64,000 bases of DNA from Pedobacter ureilyticus (GTDB lineage: Bacteria > Bacteroidota > Bacteroidia > Sphingobacteriales > Sphingobacteriaceae). How positions within the stretch are numbered: position 1 is the stretch's first letter; each line of letters begins with the position of its first letter. The translations under genes were made by a program, and so were the position numbers. Below are positions 1,787 to 53,474 of this stretch, in pieces. The notes under the pieces were generated by a model. The model did not search any database and was not told where the DNA came from. It worked only from the letters and a program-made list of their open reading frames with translations. The DNA lies in assembly GCF_005925345.1 (NCBI RefSeq), contig NZ_SSHJ01000002.1, positions 335,405-399,404 on the forward strand, given 5' to 3'.

Positions 1787-1852
1787 CGTCATTGCGAGGC
1801 ACGAAGCAATCTTAAAGCGATAAATGAGATTGCTTCGTGCCTCGCAATGACG
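1787..1852. repeat. Perfect 26-bp-arm palindromic (REP-like) element
   Basis: Arms 1787-1812 and 1827-1852 are exact reverse complements around a 14-nt loop. The element begins at the base after the GNAT stop codon and ends 17 bases before the argC ATG. It is the best-preserved copy of the GTCATTGCGAGGCACGAAGC family in the window; other copies or arms are at 1234, 14092, 18060 (decayed), 50720, 51636 and 52010. In RNA it would form a long hairpin inside the operon transcript. Confidence 0.93.
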
Positions 1853-35878: not shown

Positions 35879-38512
35879 ATGAGAATTTGGTTATTCATCT
35901 TCTTTTTAATGGTTTCCAAGGCTTCCCAAGCAATAATCATTGTAGTTACAAATAATGCTAACTCAGGCACAGGTTCTCTTAGGGAAGCTATTCAAATCGC
36001 AAACGCTAATGGTATAACCGATAGAGATTATATTTATTTCGATATTCCTGCAGCAACTGCATCAGAAGTTTCAATAAGCCTAGACAGTGAGCTGCCAATA
36101 TTAACTTCTAATGTTGTTATAGACGGAACAACTCAACCGATTTCACTTTTAGGAAATACTGGAACTCGAATTCGTCTTAATAATGCGACATCAAGCTTTT
36201 TTAGCGGGATAAGATTAGAAGGAAGCAGAGAAGTTGAGATTTACGGTATTGAGTTCGTTAACTTTAAGTCAGACCCAAACGGTCCAATTGAGGATAAGAA
36301 GGCTGGAATATATCTTCGAGATTCTCATTTTATCACCATTGGTTCTTCAAGTAAGCCAAATTGTTTTACAGGTAGTTATGCTGGAATTCTGTCTCCATTT
36401 ATCATACCTCGATTAGATGTTACAAATATCATTATTAGTGGTAACAATTTTGGTTTTAATGCAAATGGTTTGCTAAATCCAAACGAGAGTTCAATAGATT
36501 TAAGTTTTCTTAAAAACAGTAGGATTGGCGGTAGTACATTTGCTGATGCAAATGTGATTGCAGGTAGCACAAGAAATGGAATTGCGTTAGGCGGTGCGGA
36601 TGGAGACGTAGAGATCTCCAACAACATTATCGGGATGAACAGGACTATGACAACCTTGTATAAAGTGAGTGCGGCAGTTGGTATTTATGTAAATGGAAAT
36701 GCAAGCAAGCCAATTATTTCTAAAAACTTTATTTGTGGTCAAGATAGAGCTGTGTTTATAGATTATGTAAATGGGGGTTTTGTTTTAGAGGGAAACAAAT
36801 TAGGCGTAAATGAGACTGGCGCTACTACTTTTGGAAATAACGTTGGGGTATATATTAAATTTTGCAACGCTGGGCTTATAGGTGGTAATACTGCTTCTGC
36901 CAGCAACGAAATTGCTTATAATACTATAGCTGTAATTGCAGAAATTGCGTACCCGATTTCGGTCTTGCATAACAGCATTTATTGTAATTCAAATTCTTTA
37001 CTGTTTATCAACTTGCCTTCGGGTAAAACTATCACTACCTCTAAGATAGCCAATATTTCCGCCAATGAAGTGCGAGGCACTTATCTTACCAATTCAAAGA
37101 TTGAGCTTTTTTACACTGATGCCTGTGTAAATTGCGAAGGAAAGGAGTGGATTGCTACAATATTAACAGATGGATTGGGGAATTGGAGTTATAATGGGAC
37201 CATTGATCTTACGAGGTCTATTACAAGTATGGGCACAAACCAAGACGGAGCTACTGCGCCTTTCTCTAAACCTCTAATGGATCAGGTAAATGCCTTAAAA
37301 ACAGACGTAATTTGCAACCAGCCTACAGGAAGTATAAGAGGGATTGTGACTTATGATGCATCGATATTTGAATGGAGAGATGCAAATGGCTTGATCGTTG
37401 GGACAGCAAAAGATTTAGAAGGTGTTGGGCCGGGTACTTATAGGCTCACAGCTAAGCAGAACAACTCTTGCTCCGCTACGTCTAATGCGTTTACCATTAC
37501 TTCTTCTGGTACAGGAATATTGGAAAACAATATGGAGATTGTAAAGGCATATTGTGGTCAATCCAATGGTGCAATAACCGGAATAGTTACGCCAAATAAT
37601 GTTCCTCGTATCTGGTACAATGAAGCTGGAGTAGAGGTGGGTAGAAGTGATAATTTGATAAACGTGTCTGCAGGAACATACTATTTTACGGCACAATTAG
37701 GTACTTGCAATATTTCTTCTCCTAACTATGTGGTCGATAACGTCACATTTGAGTACAAAATAGCGGAAGAGGATGTTAAAGAAGCTACCTGTTCTCAAGA
37801 TAATGGCAGTATCAGTATAAATACTTTTCAAGGTGCAAGGCCAGATTATATTAAATGGTTTAATGAAAGTAATGTAGAAGTGGGTAATTCTGAAACTATC
37901 TCAGGACTAGCTGCGGGACGTTATAGATTAATGGGGTATAGTAATTTTGGATGTAGCAACTTGATTAAAGAATATACAATCGCGGAAATTCAAAGCCCTA
38001 TGGTTAACCTGCAAAACTTGAAACAATACATTAATTGTGATGGTAAATCAGTATCAACAAGCGGTATTCAAGTAGATGGACAAAGTGCACCTTATGGTTT
38101 TGCTTGGGTAGATCAAAACCAAAACATTGTTGCTTCCACACTAAATCTTAAAAATATTCCAATAGGAAAATACTTGCTAAAAGTTACAGACAGATACGGA
38201 TGTATAGTACAAAGTAGCATAATTGATTTTACACAATTAGAAGAAACCATTGTGAAAATACCAAACACATTTACCCCTAACGGAGATTCCATCAATGATG
38301 TATGGGAAATTAAAGGAATCGAAAACTATCCAGAAGCTGAATTCAATATTTTCAATCGGAGTGGCGCCACTATTTTTACAAGTAGAGGTTACAGCCGCCC
38401 ATTTGATGGTACATTTAACGGAAAAGAATTGCCCGTTGGTGTATATTATTATAAAATAAACCTGAACACAGAGTGCGGCGTTTTAACAGGGAGTTTAACT
38501 ATAATTAGATAA
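35879..38512 (+). CDS. Type IX-secreted beta-helix protein with gliding-type C-terminal domain
   Basis: An 877-residue secreted protein. After a signal (MRIWLFIFFLMVSKASQA) it shows the CSLREAI-like start SGTGSLREAIQIANANG and parallel beta-helix repeats (residues about 30-400: VEIYGIEFVNF, DVEISNNIIGM, ISKNFICG). Several Ig/SprB-like repeats follow, each carrying GSI/G..P and W-x2-x-G patterns (GVGPGTYRLTA, NVSAGTYYFTA, GLAAGRYRLMG, NIPIGKYLLKV). The last 80 residues are the gliding motility-associated domain (PNTFTPNGDSINDVWEI...GVYYYKINL), a type B sorting signal for type IX secretion. Likely an adhesin or surface binder. Confidence 0.88.
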   Translation: MRIWLFIFFLMVSKASQAIIIVVTNNANSGTGSLREAIQIANANGITDRDYIYFDIPAATASEVSISLDSELPILTSNVVIDGTTQPISLLGNTGTRIRLNNATSSFFSGIRLEGSREVEIYGIEFVNFKSDPNGPIEDKKAGIYLRDSHFITIGSSSKPNCFTGSYAGILSPFIIPRLDVTNIIISGNNFGFNANGLLNPNESSIDLSFLKNSRIGGSTFADANVIAGSTRNGIALGGADGDVEISNNIIGMNRTMTTLYKVSAAVGIYVNGNASKPIISKNFICGQDRAVFIDYVNGGFVLEGNKLGVNETGATTFGNNVGVYIKFCNAGLIGGNTASASNEIAYNTIAVIAEIAYPISVLHNSIYCNSNSLLFINLPSGKTITTSKIANISANEVRGTYLTNSKIELFYTDACVNCEGKEWIATILTDGLGNWSYNGTIDLTRSITSMGTNQDGATAPFSKPLMDQVNALKTDVICNQPTGSIRGIVTYDASIFEWRDANGLIVGTAKDLEGVGPGTYRLTAKQNNSCSATSNAFTITSSGTGILENNMEIVKAYCGQSNGAITGIVTPNNVPRIWYNEAGVEVGRSDNLINVSAGTYYFTAQLGTCNISSPNYVVDNVTFEYKIAEEDVKEATCSQDNGSISINTFQGARPDYIKWFNESNVEVGNSETISGLAAGRYRLMGYSNFGCSNLIKEYTIAEIQSPMVNLQNLKQYINCDGKSVSTSGIQVDGQSAPYGFAWVDQNQNIVASTLNLKNIPIGKYLLKVTDRYGCIVQSSIIDFTQLEETIVKIPNTFTPNGDSINDVWEIKGIENYPEAEFNIFNRSGATIFTSRGYSRPFDGTFNGKELPVGVYYYKINLNTECGVLTGSLTIIR

Positions 38513-44391: not shown

Positions 44392-44405
44392 TTTAAAAAT
44401 ATTGC

Positions 44406-44494
44406 CGTCATTTCGATCGGAGTGAGAAATCTTTAAGTTGACACTTCTGTTTAACAGATTTCTCTCCCGAAGCAAAATCGGGGTCGAAATGACG
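44406..44494. repeat. Interspersed palindrome between dehydrogenase and cytochrome c
   Basis: CGTCATTTCGATCGGAGTGAG...ATCT pairs with AGATTTCTCTCCCGAAG...GGGTCGAAATGACG. It fills the gap between the two genes and adds a spurious N-terminal extension to the cytochrome reading frame. Confidence 0.88.
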
Positions 44495-44501
44495 TAGACT
44501 T

Positions 44502-45665
44502 TTATGCTTTAGGACCAATTTTTACAATAGCACCTGTACTTTCAACAACCACATAGATATTGCCATCTGGCCCTTGTTTTACATCTCTCACTCTACCAAT
44601 TTTATCAAAGATAACCTCTTTCTTTACTACTTTATTTCCTTTGATCACTAAATGCTCCAAGTTTTGGAATTTCAATGAGCCTACTAGCAAATCGCCATTC
44701 CATTCTTTAAACTTAGGACTGTTCACGAAAGTCATTCCACACGGAGCGATAGAAGGTTTCCAGTAAATTACTGGTTGTTCCAAACCTGGCGCTTCGGTTT
44801 TATCAGAAATGATAGAGTTGTCATAATCAATTCCGTAAGTAATTAAAGGCCAACCGTAATTTTTACCTTTTTCTACAATGTTGAGTTCATCGCCTCCTTG
44901 TGGGCCATGCTCATGTGCCCAAATTGTACCTGTGGTTGGGTGCATTACCAAACCTTGCGGGTTTCTGTGTCCATAGCTCCAAATTTCTGGCAGGGCATCT
45001 TTAGTTTTTACAAACGGATTGTCGGTAGGGATTTTTCCATCTTCGTGCAAACGCACCATTTTGCCTTGTGCCTTGCTTAAATTTTGGGAGTTTTCTTTCT
45101 GTCCGCGTTCTCCTAGTGATAGGAAAACATAGCCTTTATTGTCGAATAAGATCTTACCACCAAAGTGTACACCGCCTCTTACATTCGGACTGGCTTTATA
45201 TAAATGTTCAATATTGGTTAACTGATGGCCATCTAACTTAGCTCGCATTAGCGCCGTATTGGCACCATTGTCATCACCAGCCTCGCCTTCCTTTTTGGGA
45301 GAAGAGTAGCTGATGTAAATCCACCCGTTTTCTTTGTAATTGGGATGAAGCGCCACGTCTAATAGGCCACCTTGCCCACGGTAATACACTTTTGGAATGC
45401 CAGTAATTTCTTGCGGATCTAATTGGCTGCCATTTACAATACGTAATTTACCTCCTCTTTCGGTAACTAAAACTCTTCCGTCGGGCAAAAAAGCCATAGA
45501 CCATGGCATATTTAAACCAGTCACTACAGTTTCCAATTTTAGGTTGTTTGCGGTAAGTTCCTTATTGTTAGGAGAAATATTGCAATGGCTCATCAATAGG
45601 CCAGATGTAGCTACAACCGCTAATATCAAAAGTAGTTTTATAGGTTGCTTAAATTGAAGTTTCAT
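44502..45665 (-). CDS. PQQ-dependent sugar dehydrogenase-type lipoprotein
   Basis: A 387-residue six-bladed propeller of the soluble glucose/sorbosone dehydrogenase family (like E. coli YliI). Lipoprotein signal with lipobox LLMSHC near residue 28. Family signatures: GLNMPWSMAFLPDGRVLVTERGGKL, GQGGLLDVALHP, the HFGGKILFDNKGYVFLSLGERG strand and SYGHRNPQGLV. It oxidises aldose sugars with PQQ in known members; the cofactor's presence here is inferred. The cytochrome c downstream is the probable electron acceptor. Confidence 0.92.
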   Translation of the reverse strand: MKLQFKQPIKLLLILAVVATSGLLMSHCNISPNNKELTANNLKLETVVTGLNMPWSMAFLPDGRVLVTERGGKLRIVNGSQLDPQEITGIPKVYYRGQGGLLDVALHPNYKENGWIYISYSSPKKEGEAGDDNGANTALMRAKLDGHQLTNIEHLYKASPNVRGGVHFGGKILFDNKGYVFLSLGERGQKENSQNLSKAQGKMVRLHEDGKIPTDNPFVKTKDALPEIWSYGHRNPQGLVMHPTTGTIWAHEHGPQGGDELNIVEKGKNYGWPLITYGIDYDNSIISDKTEAPGLEQPVIYWKPSIAPCGMTFVNSPKFKEWNGDLLVGSLKFQNLEHLVIKGNKVVKKEVIFDKIGRVRDVKQGPDGNIYVVVESTGAIVKIGPKA

Positions 45666-48961: not shown

Positions 48962-50005
48962 ATGGAACGTAAAGACGTAAAAATTTCCCGAAAAAAACCC
49001 ATTTTTCCAGTTAGCGAAAATTTACATAAGTATTTACGCACTTACCAACGTGATGCTCGTTTGCCTATTAAATACGAGGACCTTAAGACTTTTACGGAAA
49101 GTTTTCCCATTATGGATAGGGATGGTAAAGATACGCTTTGGGAAAGTCCGATTTATGCGCAATCGCAAATTGAAGAACTGCATAGTGGCTTAAAAATAAT
49201 TTATGCCAAGCTAAAAGCATCGGGCAACTTACGCATTGTAGAGCACAAATATATCGATAGAATTGATTACTGCACTTTCGGCAATACACATCCTTTTCGT
49301 ATTAGAATTGTAAACCGTTTAAATGATGTTTACGATTATTTTTACGTGAAAAAAGCAGATTCATCTAGAATTTATGGGCTCGAATTAGAAGAAGTTTTAT
49401 CGCCAAACCAAGTCAATTATTTGGTTGATGGAGATACCATGATTGAGGAGCATATTGTAGGGATACCAGGCGATGTATTTAATAAAGGGAAAATTTACCA
49501 AGATGATTTTAATCCAACTCGTATTGCCAAAGAGTTTGTGAAATTTAACGAACGTTGCTTGGTTACCTTGCTGGGCGATATGCGTTCGTATAATTTTGTG
49601 GTGCAAATTACACCCGATTTTGATGATATCCAATTCCGTATACGGGCTATAGATTTTGATCAGCAGTTTTATGAAGGAAACATTAAAGTGTACATGCCTC
49701 AGTTTTTTAAGGAAAATTTGCCGTTGGTAAAATTGTGTATGGAACACCTTACTGAAAAAACAGTGCAACAGTACAAACAAGAAGAGCTTTCGTCTTTAGT
49801 TCATCGGGTGCGTAGCGAACGCCATCGCTTAACAGATTTGCGTGACGTATCTTGTAAAGAGCAACTTACTACACCCGAGAATATCATGAAATTAAAGCGC
49901 AGCATGGCAGAGTATTATCAAGATGCTGCTTATAAAGAATGCAAGAATATGACTGATATTATCGAGCTGAACTTGAAAAATATCATTAGGCAGGTAAAGT
50001 TATAG
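48962..50005 (+). CDS. Conserved protein of unknown function
   Basis: A 347-residue cytosolic protein without signal or membrane segments. I place the start at ATG 48962 (an in-frame GTG lies 6 bases before). The centre contains LLGDMRSYNFVVQITPDFDD followed by IRAIDFDQQFYEGN, an arrangement of Asn and Asp that recalls the catalytic and metal-binding parts of kinase-like (APH/HipA-type) folds, but I cannot assign a family. The C-terminus is helical and charged. Single gene between GH3 and the DJ-1 gene. Confidence 0.7.
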   Translation: MERKDVKISRKKPIFPVSENLHKYLRTYQRDARLPIKYEDLKTFTESFPIMDRDGKDTLWESPIYAQSQIEELHSGLKIIYAKLKASGNLRIVEHKYIDRIDYCTFGNTHPFRIRIVNRLNDVYDYFYVKKADSSRIYGLELEEVLSPNQVNYLVDGDTMIEEHIVGIPGDVFNKGKIYQDDFNPTRIAKEFVKFNERCLVTLLGDMRSYNFVVQITPDFDDIQFRIRAIDFDQQFYEGNIKVYMPQFFKENLPLVKLCMEHLTEKTVQQYKQEELSSLVHRVRSERHRLTDLRDVSCKEQLTTPENIMKLKRSMAEYYQDAAYKECKNMTDIIELNLKNIIRQVKL

Positions 50006-50007
50006 AT

Positions 50008-50062
50008 GTCATTCTGAGCACGCGAGAAATCTAGCTGTAGATTCCTCGAGCCTCGGAATGAC
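50008..50062. repeat. Interspersed palindrome after the unknown gene
   Basis: GTCATTCTGAGCACGCGAG...ATCT and AGATTCCTCGAGCCTCGG...ATGAC form a stem of about 24 bp with a 6-nt loop between converging genes; it may also act as a terminator. Confidence 0.8.
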
Positions 50063-50078
50063 AAAGTGCTGTTAGTGT

Positions 50079-50639
50079 TTAAGCATGCTGTTTTTCGTGC
50101 ACACCTTCGGCAAATTCTTCTACCATTTTATCGTTAAAGGCTGGTAAATCTCCTGGGTTACGACTAGTCACTAAGCCTTGGTCTACTACCACTTCTTCGT
50201 CTACCCAATTGGCTCCGGCGTTGATCAAGTCTTTTTTGATCGAACCATAAGAGGTCATTTTCCTTCCTTCTACCACTTCGGCATCAATTAGCGTTTGCGG
50301 ACCATGGCAAATAGCCGCTACAGGTTTGCCTTTTTTAAAGAAATCTCTCACAAAAGCAACGGCATTTGCATTGGCTCTTAACGCATCTGGATTAATTACG
50401 CCACCCGGAAGCAACAAACCGTCAAAGTCATTTACATTTACTTCTTCTACCGCATTGTCGACCGCAATTTCTTTGCTCCACTGGTGGTCTTTCATGCCCT
50501 TAATGCTTCCTTTTTTTGAGGAGATGATTTGCACATTGGCTCCTTCTTCTTTTAACCTATTTAGTGGTTCAAATAATTCTGATTCTTCGAAGCCACTCTC
50601 TGATAGAATGGCGATGTTTTTATTGCTTAACTTTCCCAT
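50079..50639 (-). CDS. DJ-1/PfpI family protein (type 1 glutamine amidotransferase-like)
   Basis: A 186-residue protein of the PfpI/YhbO branch. The nucleophile elbow AAICHGPQTLIDA has Cys at residue 111, and LLLPGGVINPD carries the oxyanion-side glycine pair; the acidic partner is in the N-terminal EESELFEPL. Members act as stress-induced glyoxalase/deglycase or chaperone-like proteins; the exact activity is debated. No operon partner. Confidence 0.92.
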   Translation of the reverse strand: MGKLSNKNIAILSESGFEESELFEPLNRLKEEGANVQIISSKKGSIKGMKDHQWSKEIAVDNAVEEVNVNDFDGLLLPGGVINPDALRANANAVAFVRDFFKKGKPVAAICHGPQTLIDAEVVEGRKMTSYGSIKKDLINAGANWVDEEVVVDQGLVTSRNPGDLPAFNDKMVEEFAEGVHEKQHA

Positions 50640-50827: not shown

Positions 50828-51577
50828 TTAATCGTTTGTTCTTCTATGCTTTAAAAAATAAAATCCTAAGTTAAACGCAATTACCACATGGTTAATTACA
50901 TTCGCCACAAAACCATAGTAATGGCTAAAAATTTTAAAACGTTCTTTTAAGCTTTCGCGATGTTTTTGCTTGCTCATGCCACCAACCAGATACTTGGCAA
51001 CGTACAAATGCGTATTTACAATATTCGATGCTTTTTTGGCGATTTTGATGATCCAATCTATATCTGAGCTGTATTTGTATTGTAAATCGTAAGGCTCAGT
51101 TAAGCTACGTTTTACGTAAATCGCCTGATGGCTAATGCTCATACCATATTTAAAACTGCGCCAATTAAAGGTATCTGGTGCTTGGTGCCTGCGCCTGCCA
51201 AGACTGTTCCAGTTTTCATCATACATTTCGGTTTCGCCGTAGTAGATGTCGGCGTTTGGCGAAGTAGCGAAAATCTTTTCCACGGTATCAAGCTCGTAGA
51301 TTTCATCTCCAGAGTTCATAAACAAGACATAATCGCCACTAGCCTGTGCCAAACCTTTGTTCATCGCATCGTAGATGCCCTTGTCTTTTTCCGAAATCAG
51401 CTTTGCTAAACGTTTTTCATATTGTTTAACGATAGTTAGCGTGCCATCTGTAGAAGCGCCATCAATAACAATATATTCGATGTTTTTATAGCTTTGGTTA
51501 AGTACCGAAAGCATAGTGCGTTCGATAGCTGCGGCATTGTTGTAAACGATGGTGATGACAGATAATTTGGGAAGCAT
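50828..51577 (-). CDS. Glycosyltransferase family 2
   Basis: A 249-residue GT-A enzyme. The N-terminal LSVITIVYNNAAAIERTMLSVLNQSY and YIVIDGASTDGT bind the nucleotide; DYVLFMNSGDEIY carries the acidic metal-site motif. The C-terminal part (FKYGMSISHQAIYVKR) matches the WcaA/colanic-acid-type group. It would add a sugar to a lipid-linked surface glycan; the sugar is unknown. It is part of the polysaccharide locus extending to 61071. Confidence 0.9.
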   Translation of the reverse strand: MLPKLSVITIVYNNAAAIERTMLSVLNQSYKNIEYIVIDGASTDGTLTIVKQYEKRLAKLISEKDKGIYDAMNKGLAQASGDYVLFMNSGDEIYELDTVEKIFATSPNADIYYGETEMYDENWNSLGRRRHQAPDTFNWRSFKYGMSISHQAIYVKRSLTEPYDLQYKYSSDIDWIIKIAKKASNIVNTHLYVAKYLVGGMSKQKHRESLKERFKIFSHYYGFVANVINHVVIAFNLGFYFLKHRRTND

Positions 51578-51611: not shown

Positions 51612-51684
51612 GTTTCGCAGTGACGAAAATTATGTCGTCATTGCGAGGCACAGCCTGTTCCGATTATTCGGGAAAGCAATCTCC
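51612..51684. repeat. Left terminal REP arms of the GIY-YIG unit
   Basis: Bases 51636-51684 (CGTCATTGCGAGGCACAGCC...AAAGCAATCTCC) pair with 52010-52058 at 47 of 49 positions. A further partial inverted arm (TCGCAGTGACGA, about 51616-51627) sits just outside and can fold against TCGTCATTGCG. Confidence 0.9.
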
Positions 51685-51687
51685 GAG

Positions 51688-51985
51688 TTAGAAATTGATT
51701 TCATCATACAAATCTTTCCAATGCGGATTGATACCTTTTTATCAAAGTGATTTTAGCTAATCTGCTTCCGCTTTTAATACGTTTTTCTTCAAAAATTGCT
51801 TCTTCTATTGTTGGATAAAAGCAATAATAAACTAATTTTTCGCAGTTATATTTTGCCGCAAAACTATTTGGATAAATATGGTTTTTATGTTGCCAAATTC
51901 TATATGCAATATCAGACGTTACACCAACATATAGCACCTTATTAGATTTATTAGTTAGAATGTAGACTAATCCGCCTCTTTGCAT
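51688..51985 (-). pseudogene. GIY-YIG nuclease gene, 3' frameshift, enclosed by REP arms
   Basis: A compact GIY-YIG endonuclease: LVYILTNKSNKVLYVGVTSDI holds the YIL...YVG motif, IAYRIWQHKNH the Arg and His, and EEAIFEEKRIKSG the metal-binding Glu. The uninterrupted frame stops at 51704 after ALERFV. Removing one A from the AAAAA run near 51737-51741 restores GINPHWKDLYDEI, the usual family ending, with a stop at 51688-51690, three bases from the left REP arm. The shift truncates only the tail, after the catalytic residues. It may be genuine decay or an assembly error. Confidence 0.85.
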
Positions 51986-52009
51986 TTTTCGTTTTTGTGC
52001 TTTTAGGTT

Positions 52010-52058
52010 GGAGACTGCTTTCCCGAATAATCGGAACAGGCTGTGCCTCGCAGTGACG
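52010..52058. repeat. Right terminal REP arm of the GIY-YIG unit
   Basis: Inverted partner of 51636-51684, starting 25 bases before the GIY-YIG ATG (minus-strand sense) and ending 8 bases from the glycosyltransferase stop at 52066. Confidence 0.9.
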
Positions 52059-52065
52059 AAGGTCC

Positions 52066-53340
52066 TTATTTAGGCATATCATCTAACAACTTTAAATACA
52101 AAGCGGCATGTTGCTCAGCAATTACCGATGGGGCGAAGGTACTTAAAACCGTTCGTCTAGCTTCTTTCTGTATTTCTTCTTGCTTTTCGTGCAGGAATAG
52201 CCATTCTATGCCATCAGCTAGATCTGAAGCATCTTTGTACCGTGCTAAATAGCCATTTTGCAGATGCTTTACCATATCCGGAATACCACCAGTAGTAAAA
52301 GCAATTACGGGTGTGGCACAGGCCAAGCTTTCCATCACAGTATTCGGTAAGTTATCTTCTAGCGAAGGAGTAATGAAAGCATCGGCGGCGGCGTAGCATT
52401 TTGCCAGGTGCTCATCTTTGTTGATGGTTCCCAAAAAAGTAGTTTTAAAAGGAAATTTTGGAACGTCTTGTTCATTTTTATTTCCAAAAATAACTAACTC
52501 GATTTGCTCGTTCGGAATTTCTGGTCGGCGGGAAAGCTCAAACAAAGCATCGATTAAATATTGTGTACCCTTATGTTTGTCGTTTTTGGATGGCATAAAA
52601 CCACTCATTAACACAAACTTTTCTGGCGCTATTTTCAATATTTTCTTTGCTTCGGCTTTTACATAAGGTTTAAAAACATCCACCTCGATGGTGTTGGGAA
52701 TAACGGAAGTATGGCGTAAACCTAACAAACTACTTTCTTTTACCGATTGTGCCATCCAGTTGCTTGGGGCAACTACATGAAAGTTTAAGCTAGAGTAAGC
52801 CTTTTGTTTGCGCTTCCAGGTTTGGTGCGAAATGTCTCTAGGTCCGCTCATTTTTAACAATGGACAATTGCCACATTGCCTGCGAAAGTTCTCGCAGCTG
52901 TAACGTACATGGCAACCACCAGTAAAGGCATTGCTATCGTGGAAAGTCCACACAATTGGTTTCTCCAATTCATCCAATTCTGCTAAAAACTTCGGACTTA
53001 AAAAACCGTGGTTAACCCAATGGATGTGGATCACATCTGCTTCTTGAACCAATTTGTTTTTAAGGACGCTTTTACCAAACCATTGCAGCGAGAAGGGAGT
53101 TTTTACTTCTGCTTTTGAAAAAGCTTTGGCCAAATATCGCTCTGATAGGATATTAAACACCGCTTTGGCTTTAGCAAAAGGGCTTTTACTCAAATTATGG
53201 ATATGAGGATTGTTCCCGAATTGATAATACACGAGTACCTTGGAATCTACGCCCATGCCATTTAAAGCATCGCTTAAACGTAAGCAAGCCCTTCCGGCAC
53301 CGCCGTTACCATCATAAGTGTTTAGGTGTACTACTTTCAA
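52066..53340 (-). CDS. Glycosyltransferase family 4 (group 1)
   Basis: A GT-B enzyme. I prefer the TTG start at 53340 (reading KVVHLNTYDGNGGAGRACLRL, the canonical N-terminus); an ATG at 53454 is in frame but adds about 38 residues without family likeness. The C-terminal donor domain has VLMSGFMPSKNDKHKGTQYL and the acidic EDNLPNTVMESLACATPVIAF, with the retaining-enzyme Glu pair. A Cys cluster (CHVRYSCENFRRQCGNCP) is typical of this subgroup. It probably builds surface polysaccharide with neighbouring GTs. Confidence 0.9.
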   Translation of the reverse strand: MKVVHLNTYDGNGGAGRACLRLSDALNGMGVDSKVLVYYQFGNNPHIHNLSKSPFAKAKAVFNILSERYLAKAFSKAEVKTPFSLQWFGKSVLKNKLVQEADVIHIHWVNHGFLSPKFLAELDELEKPIVWTFHDSNAFTGGCHVRYSCENFRRQCGNCPLLKMSGPRDISHQTWKRKQKAYSSLNFHVVAPSNWMAQSVKESSLLGLRHTSVIPNTIEVDVFKPYVKAEAKKILKIAPEKFVLMSGFMPSKNDKHKGTQYLIDALFELSRRPEIPNEQIELVIFGNKNEQDVPKFPFKTTFLGTINKDEHLAKCYAAADAFITPSLEDNLPNTVMESLACATPVIAFTTGGIPDMVKHLQNGYLARYKDASDLADGIEWLFLHEKQEEIQKEARRTVLSTFAPSVIAEQHAALYLKLLDDMPK

Positions 53341-53474
53341 ATCAATCAAAAATACATTTTTATGTTTACGTTTGTAATATTTTAAAAATTGTTGGATTGA
53401 TACGTGGCTAAATTGCTGATGTGTTAACAATCCGACAGTAAAAATTAGTATCAAGCACTAACTTATTATTAAAA

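Follow-up and report, generated by a model that had tools for sequence, protein, structure and literature searches.

Members of a subfamily of small GIY-YIG nucleases are usually bounded by CGTC-tagged REP hairpins across many phyla, and the clade of the nuclease matches the stem family of its REPs. The starting point was one locus in a 64,000-nucleotide stretch of Pedobacter ureilyticus DNA (the window), for which a sequence-only reading had described a GIY-YIG gene enclosed by inverted REP-type repeats. That observation is real and broader than originally proposed. The gene might have been confined to this one site, or might have had unrelated repeats beside it in relatives; instead, the family occurs at many different loci, where the flanking repeats are mostly related and clade matched, so the nuclease does belong with the REPs.

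At the window locus, repeat search, arm alignment, and folding located a left arm at 51635 to 51684 on the forward strand (CGTC-ATTGC...GCAAT-CTC) and a right arm at 52010 to 52059 on the reverse strand (CGTC-ACTGC...GCAGT-CTC), each with its tag pointing outward. The inverted arms are identical at 48 of 50 positions in the arm alignment (47 of 49 had been claimed), and a wider 59-nucleotide pair in the repeat search is 90% identical. Between them, the open reading frame list and Pfam place a reverse-strand gene at 51704 to 51985 encoding 93 amino acids, with GIY-YIG (PF01541, 5.6e-14) as its sole Pfam domain. Its ATG at 51985 lies beside the right arm as described, at a measured distance of 24 bases rather than 25. 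The closest homologue is an intact 98-amino-acid open reading frame at the same locus in genome G146. Since the conserved C terminus of relatives sits in another frame than the one ending at 51704, and the G146 homologue is intact, the window copy carries a frameshift close to its 3' end. The stop codon of the conserved frame, which had been placed 3 bases from the left arm, is present in the sequence at 51688 to 51690 on the reverse strand, as comparison with the intact homologue confirms. A 13-bp direct repeat, TCGCAGTGACGAA, lies on the forward strand at 51615 to 51627 and again at 52048 to 52060, where it overlaps the head of the right REP. The unit is flanked by two reverse-strand glycosyltransferase genes, Glycos_transf_2 at 50828 to 51577 and Glycos_transf_1 at 52066 to 53454. 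The locus DNA around it has matches in 142 of 145 genomes of the genus.

The arm family recurs in the window as bare hairpins, as the earlier reading had noted. The arm head, GTCATTGCGAGG, has 7 matches with at most one mismatch against 0.11 expected, and hairpin scanning and folding identified a bare dimer of the same family at 1787 to 1852 on the forward strand, with a 26-bp stem and a tag at each end. A strict scan of the window listed 18 hairpins, 14 tagged with CGTC and 4 with TGTC, a list in which the dimer at 1787 is counted on both strands and from which the right arm is absent because it reads CGTCAC. The arms themselves have a 5-bp stem and a partly structured loop; in single-strand folding, 20 and 14 of 200 shuffles were at least as stable, so neither arm is a clear outlier. 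The dimer at 1787 to 1852 folds far beyond its shuffles.

By eye, both arms carry an identical long loop in the window and an identical short loop in G146, and the difference between left and right stems is retained in both genomes; to judge from these alignments by eye, the arms undergo concerted evolution. Their near-identity may thus come from correction between inverted copies, which needs no recent jump. Two window intergenic spaces, 44393 to 44502 and 50001 to 50079, hold another hairpin family in G146, as if sites swap families. The loop CAGCCTGTTCCGAT followed by three bases and TCGGGAA occurs in REPs of two stem families, that of the window arms and that of a REP on contig 33 of G005 (170792 to 170843).

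The genome of the window contains six genes of the REP-type subfamily (L001 to L006), all of which have a strict hairpin on one or both sides; in five, it lies no more than 70 bp from the gene. The sixth, L002, has its nearest strict hairpins at distances of 253 and 155 bp. The arms of these six copies belong to four stem families, each matching its nuclease clade. We surveyed 40 stretches, none longer than 20 kb, in this genome and its relatives, taking genes with a profile score of at least 80 as REP type and hairpins within 200 bp as adjacent; 2 of the 40 rows, a weak match in L060 and a second open reading frame of L065, fell in neither group. Hairpins were adjacent on at least one side of 23 of 24 REP-type genes and on both sides of 15, versus both sides of 7 of 564 control genes (one side, 86). 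Among 14 genes of the sister GIY-YIG clade, none had hairpins on both sides and one had a hairpin on one side. In that clade, 9 of 14 genes lie in kilobase-long alignments with each other, whereas alignments of REP-type genes mostly end near the gene, although some are syntenic (for example, L012 and L014). From these alignments the sister clade appears resident and the REP-flanked clades do not; it is possibly a domesticated lineage. Sister-clade loci L066, L067, L070 to L076, and L037 keep their neighbors across genomes and have almost no adjacent REPs.

The association extends far beyond Pedobacter. We examined the best 80 of 573 listed matches in named genomes, selected by one peptide pattern, and found [C/T]GTCAT hairpins within 300 bp on both sides of 49, on one side of 19, and at neither side of 12. 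As controls, 1,051 positions chosen at random in these loci, each 900 bp or more distant, had both in 2 cases and one in 73. The record titles of these best 80 span Bacteroidota, Pseudomonadota, Fibrobacter, Nitrospirae, Elusimicrobia, Chloroflexi, Acetothermia, Planctomycetes, Saccharibacteria, Campylobacteraceae, and Oscillospiraceae, and since many records are metagenome bins, single phylum assignments may be wrong. Second copies in genomes reached through this set (n = 10) had hairpins on both sides in 4 cases, one side in 2, and neither in 4. For 27 loci that failed or half failed the strict scan (L166 and L252 among them being one locus), a free arm search recovered an inverted match scoring at least 32 in 18; for comparison, 95% of shuffles reach no more than 23. 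Of the rest, 3 had a direct match only, L024 was marginal, and this search found nothing clear at 5 (L055, L086, L175, L260, and L263). Variant tags at these loci included CGTCG, CGTCAC, TGTCTT, TGTCGT, and CCTCAT.

Two further samples gave a similar distribution. In Bacteroidota, 191 of 296 sampled genomes match the GIY-YIG profile, the sister clade included; at 30 loci, taken as the best match with one per genome (L261 and L262 overlap the earlier sets), both arms were present at 17, one at 10, and none at 3, compared with both at 8 and one at 59 of 291 control positions. A tblastn search of plasmid records matched 33, including records from Rhizobium, Sphingobium, Sinorhizobium, Shinella, Azospirillum, Neisseria, and Planktothrix, and no phage match to the subfamily was found at 1e-5. 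Strict hairpins within 300 bp lay on both sides at 9 of the 16 plasmid records examined, on one side at 2, and at neither side at 5. Among these five, L082, L083, and L085 carry inverted arms whose tags are variants, L084 corresponds to the L083 locus in a related strain, and L086 has none. One of the plasmid genes, L087 of Planktothrix agardhii, is flanked by TGTC hairpins and lies between an MmeI-like restriction-modification gene and the DISARM gene drmA. A distant GIY-YIG paralogue (L007/L009; G000 contig 6, about 37400 to 38050) sits in a duplication (about 445 bp, 97% identical) that adjoins a tRNA-Leu (gag) gene.

These counts bear on the two explanations in which the gene is an ordinary host gene. 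With a density of about 0.29 REPs per kb in the 40 sampled stretches, and with REPs in several intergenic spaces of the window, two of them could have landed next to a resident gene, but that account is virtually inconceivable and is refuted by the control genes (7/564), the random positions (2/1,051), and the clade-matched arms. Alternatively, the hairpins could terminate, protect, or process the transcript of a host gene, as REPs are often located 3' to genes and possibly function as RNA elements (PMC3733652, in the parts available to us). We regard such regulation as very improbable, because REP-type copies vary in position between genomes and because 49 of the best 80 of 573 loci have REPs on both sides versus 7 of 564 control genes. 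The earlier description of the unit as a REP hairpin with a nuclease in its loop fits one layout among several; of the 49 loci flanked on both sides, the CGTC heads point outward at 25, inward at 9, and in the same direction at 15.

Arms were classed by the bases following GTC and compared with a quick tree of 157 proteins, in which 77 of 154 forks are open. With 114 of the 157 tips labeled (43 had no arm, mixed arms, or other stems), 16 label changes were observed on the tree, versus a mean of 65.2 and a minimum of 57 in 500 shuffles. Shuffling labels only within genomes removes the effect of genomes full of one REP, and the match persisted. Multicopy genomes showed 3 changes, compared with a mean of 12.8 and a minimum of 6 in 5,000 trials; scored on the whole tree, the observed 16 compare with a mean of 28.9 and a minimum of 19 in 2,000 trials. 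Nuclease clade and REP stem family therefore match. Because co-inheritance of gene and arms also produces such a match, it shows a unit and not an activity.

Six residues are invariant in 21 aligned members (Y8, Y19, R29, H33, E67, and N86) and include the GIY-YIG core Tyr, Tyr, Arg, and Glu (Y8, Y19, R29, and E67). Given the individual roles that we presume for these six in a GIY-YIG site, the alignment is compatible with a working one. Columns 72 to 77, after the catalytic Glu, vary by arm class and are a lead toward specificity, and a change of W73 to G accompanies the NGCGA class in 26 of 34 members. It also occurs in the planctomycete L179 and is absent from L180 and L161; we thus treat W73 as a lead only and not as the specificity residue.

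REP abundance goes with the cognate nuclease, loosely and with many exceptions. We counted four REP families and searched 36 Pedobacter genomes for the nuclease (4 further pattern-searched genomes were dropped), assigning clades by hand from the tree, except that G025 was assigned to NGCGA through a fragment outside the tree; the TGTC-tagged copies of G001 and G031 (L058 and L060) were not counted. Median cognate REP counts with and without the clade were 84 and 0 for NGCGA, 36.5 and 0 for NCCS, 47.5 and 1.5 for NCTGA, and 104 and 0 for YTCGA. Permuting clades within genomes gave a P value of 1.5e-4, or 9e-4 once counts were centered by family; these permutations include the exceptional cells, and simple rank tests on the same data ignore kinship of the genomes. 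Where the clade was present, 23 of 32 genome-family cells had at least 40 copies (3 had fewer than 10); where it was absent, 16 of 112 did (57 had zero). REP-rich cells that lack the clade include G027 (93 NGCGA and 89 NCCS), G020 (158 YTCGA), and G034 (294 YTCGA), and in G007, which has 100 NGCGA REPs, no REP-type nuclease was found. Such cells could be explained by loss of the nuclease after spread or by action across families. On contig 1 of G005 (453335 to 455012), nine CGTCATTCCC REPs stand in tandem with a spacing of about 207 bp.

The exceptional cells count in favor of another possibility, that the gene is a passenger; gene and REP ends would then form one unit moved in trans by some other enzyme, with the nuclease inactive on REPs. 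Co-inheritance by itself would yield clade-matched arms, and 16 of 112 cells are rich in REPs while lacking the matching clade. Even so, we consider a passenger role unlikely, since the abundance of bare REPs tracks the cognate nuclease within genomes. Moreover, CGTC REPs are described as flanking no tyrosine transposase gene, with few fortuitous transposase links, in the available parts of PMC3733652.

At other loci, alignment ends fall at tags more often than random positions do. In pairs of nonsyntenic loci at least 74% identical, examined with a looser tag pattern than in our other scans, of the 64 points beyond the gene at which an alignment stopped, 25 lay within 5 bp of a tag versus 4.4% of random positions, with the reservation that the 64 ends are not independent because some genomes enter twice. 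The clearest bounded pair is Sinorhizobium L081 (1948 to 2322) and Shinella L088 (1945 to 2324), which have different neighbors. Beside the full unit in L081 (Sinorhizobium meliloti Ak57), at about 1665 to 1825, hairpins surround a fragment of the 3' end of the gene (1706 to 1786) that corresponds to gene bases 205 to 285 at 94% identity. The smaller element looks like an internally deleted, MITE-like derivative, and it provides one clear example for the earlier suggestion that bare elements could be remnants. Two equal-scoring copies about 6 kb apart on contig 1 of G258 (206026 and 212477) are a possible recent duplication. The Fibrobacter loci L139 and L149 were considered as a recent jump and set aside, as their flanks look, by eye, like homologous coding DNA.

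Sites in relatives bear on the possible mobility of the unit. In Azospirillum lipoferum, the unit separates sufB from sufC, and the four relatives compared have neither a GIY-YIG gene nor a CGTCAT or TGTCAT head between these genes (L099 holds another hairpin there). The REPs thus seem to have arrived with the gene. These sites are relevant to a scenario in which the nuclease is a homing endonuclease with REPs as its home: REPs would spread by other means, and the gene would invade by being copied into REP dimers that the nuclease had cut. The gene does lie within a tag-outward dimer at 25 of the 49 both-flanked loci (best 80 of 573), and GIY-YIG domains are frequent in homing enzymes (PMC1564403, as far as the consulted parts go). 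We find this scenario doubtful, if less so than a passenger role, because the A. lipoferum empty sites lack such a head, REP abundance follows the cognate nuclease, and Pfam and NCBIfam scans found no added DNA-binding domain.

Between G031 and G020 (about 93 to 97% identity), the gene is missing from G020 at all three loci compared of five REP-type loci, and the whole intergenic stretch differs at those three; locus L012 of G031 is common to G020 and not lost. Two of six footprint comparisons for this pair, both with L219, gave no alignment. The two Sphingobium plasmids compared showed no REP difference in about 50 kb. For the window locus, the best 20 matching loci comprise 4 with the gene (the window's own, G146, G017, and G070) and 16 without it, and both flanks are readable in 18. 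In G089, an intergenic space of 55 bases aligns to both sides of the unit with a 10-bp overlap at the join and is, from this alignment, a near-exact empty site for the window unit. The window copy itself is old at its locus, being common to G146, G017, and G070. The gene is present in G017 and G070, whose similarity to the window (about 80%) is lower than that of G089 (83%), a comparison that leans toward loss in G089. The direct repeat at 51615 and 52048 would make precise deletion as easy as insertion at that site. We found no consistent target-site duplication, and the roughly 10 bp at G089 coincide with the REP head. A simple cut-and-paste footprint was looked for and rejected; among the G031/G020 pair, the Sphingobium plasmids, and the window against G146 and G089 (alignments that cover window positions 37076 to 63873 and 38511 to 63873 only), G089 alone is near clean. 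As for the small mobile system originally envisaged, the association of nuclease and REP stands, while the evidence for mobility is indirect and clean empty sites are rare, with the one near-exact case in G089.

The account that we favor, and hold to be probable, is a two-part selfish system consisting of a small stand-alone GIY-YIG nuclease and its cognate CGTC-tagged REP, in which the pairing is observed and the activity would be as follows. The nuclease would recognize hairpins of its cognate REP family, in part perhaps by means of the helix that follows the catalytic Glu, and would cleave at or near the unpaired CGTC tag of a hairpin exposed in single-stranded DNA or a cruciform. A hairpin substrate is plausible by analogy with Slx1, which works on branched DNA. 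GIY-YIG enzymes hydrolyze DNA, and we know of no joining step for them, so templated copying is the expected route of spread. Units would be copied into intergenic breaks during repair or replication, a process that resembles homing more than cut-and-paste. Copying of bare REPs would take place in trans, and loss of the gene from a unit would leave a bare dimer. It is quite possible, though somewhat short of probable, that the CGTC REPs of many phyla form a superfamily of mobile hairpins replicated by dedicated, stem-specific GIY-YIG nucleases.

If this superfamily reading is right, the REP-nuclease-REP unit of about 425 bp would define a new class of mobile DNA, with an enzyme other than a DDE, HUH, serine, or tyrosine recombinase. 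If the favored account holds, it would be a very small autonomous mobile unit with a chemistry that, to our knowledge, is not known from DNA transposition. Genes annotated as "GIY-YIG nuclease family protein" or "excinuclease ABC subunit C" could then be repeat partners and not repair enzymes.

Two superfamilies of REPs are distinguished by their unpaired tag, GTAG and CGTC (also TGTC and CCTC), of which GTAG REPs associate with RAYT transposases and CGTC REPs "apparently lack a dedicated transposase" (Di Nocera et al. 2013, PMC3733652; here and below, the parts of the article available to us). The elements described here resemble the latter in their CGTC, TGTC, or CCTC tag, to some extent in a hairpin that opens with AT, in head-to-head dimers, and in occurring partly in the same organisms, namely, Azospirillum lipoferum, Sinorhizobium meliloti, and Neisseria (dRS3). 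The tag is present on the window arms and on at least one side of 68 of the best 80 of 573 loci; head-to-head dimers are seen at window 1787 to 1852 and in many neighboring plus/minus pairs among the REP matches listed. Stems in the published families are 8 to 9 bp with loops of 4 to 5, whereas the window family has a 5-bp stem and a longer loop; our NCCS and NCTGA families have 8-bp stems. The main difference is that no transposase gene was reported for CGTC REPs in that survey, while a GIY-YIG nuclease is associated with them here. The term GIY-YIG is absent from the available text of PMC3733652, and the literature that we searched yielded no earlier report of a link between GIY-YIG genes and REPs. 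Di Nocera et al. end by asking what moves CGTC REPs, which are widespread in bacteria; the superfamily reading, if correct, would supply the enzyme missing from their survey. Given a clade-matched nuclease, their question can be put to the test using short hairpin oligonucleotides and a protein of about 95 residues.

Several other systems share parts of this arrangement. MITEs and insertion sequences likewise have inverted ends, and, as with them, an internally deleted form was seen here at least once; in our case, the ends are themselves hairpins and no consistent target-site duplication was found. GIY-YIG homing endonucleases share the nuclease domain and a possibly selfish context but differ in that no added DNA-binding domain was found here; in an NCBIfam scan of five proteins, no model reached its cutoff (grpIintron_endo, 20.3 versus 56.05). 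Stand-alone Slx1-like or UPF0213 proteins have the same size of about 95 amino acids and a single domain, and the nearest solved structures by sequence, 1zg2 and 1ywl, are both UPF0213. They differ insofar as the sister clade looks resident and the REP-flanked clades do not. Dunin-Horkawicz et al. ask whether further GIY-YIG proteins are molecular parasites (PMC1564403, in the parts consulted).

A parallel in layout is found in the REP-RAYT REPtrons, in which a gene is likewise flanked by its own REP family, matched to it by clade, and accompanied by an excess of bare repeats. RAYTs are HUH/tyrosine enzymes that go with GTAG REPs (PMC8266576 and PMC3733652, both as available in part), whereas here a GIY-YIG enzyme goes with CGTC REPs; Pfam detects PF01541 only and no HUH tyrosine transposase domain in the window protein, and the tag of the window arms is CGTC and not GTAG. 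The present system is therefore not RAYT by membership and looks like RAYT in its layout and in the matching of enzyme to repeat. If the proposed activity holds, two REP systems with unrelated enzymes would represent convergence.
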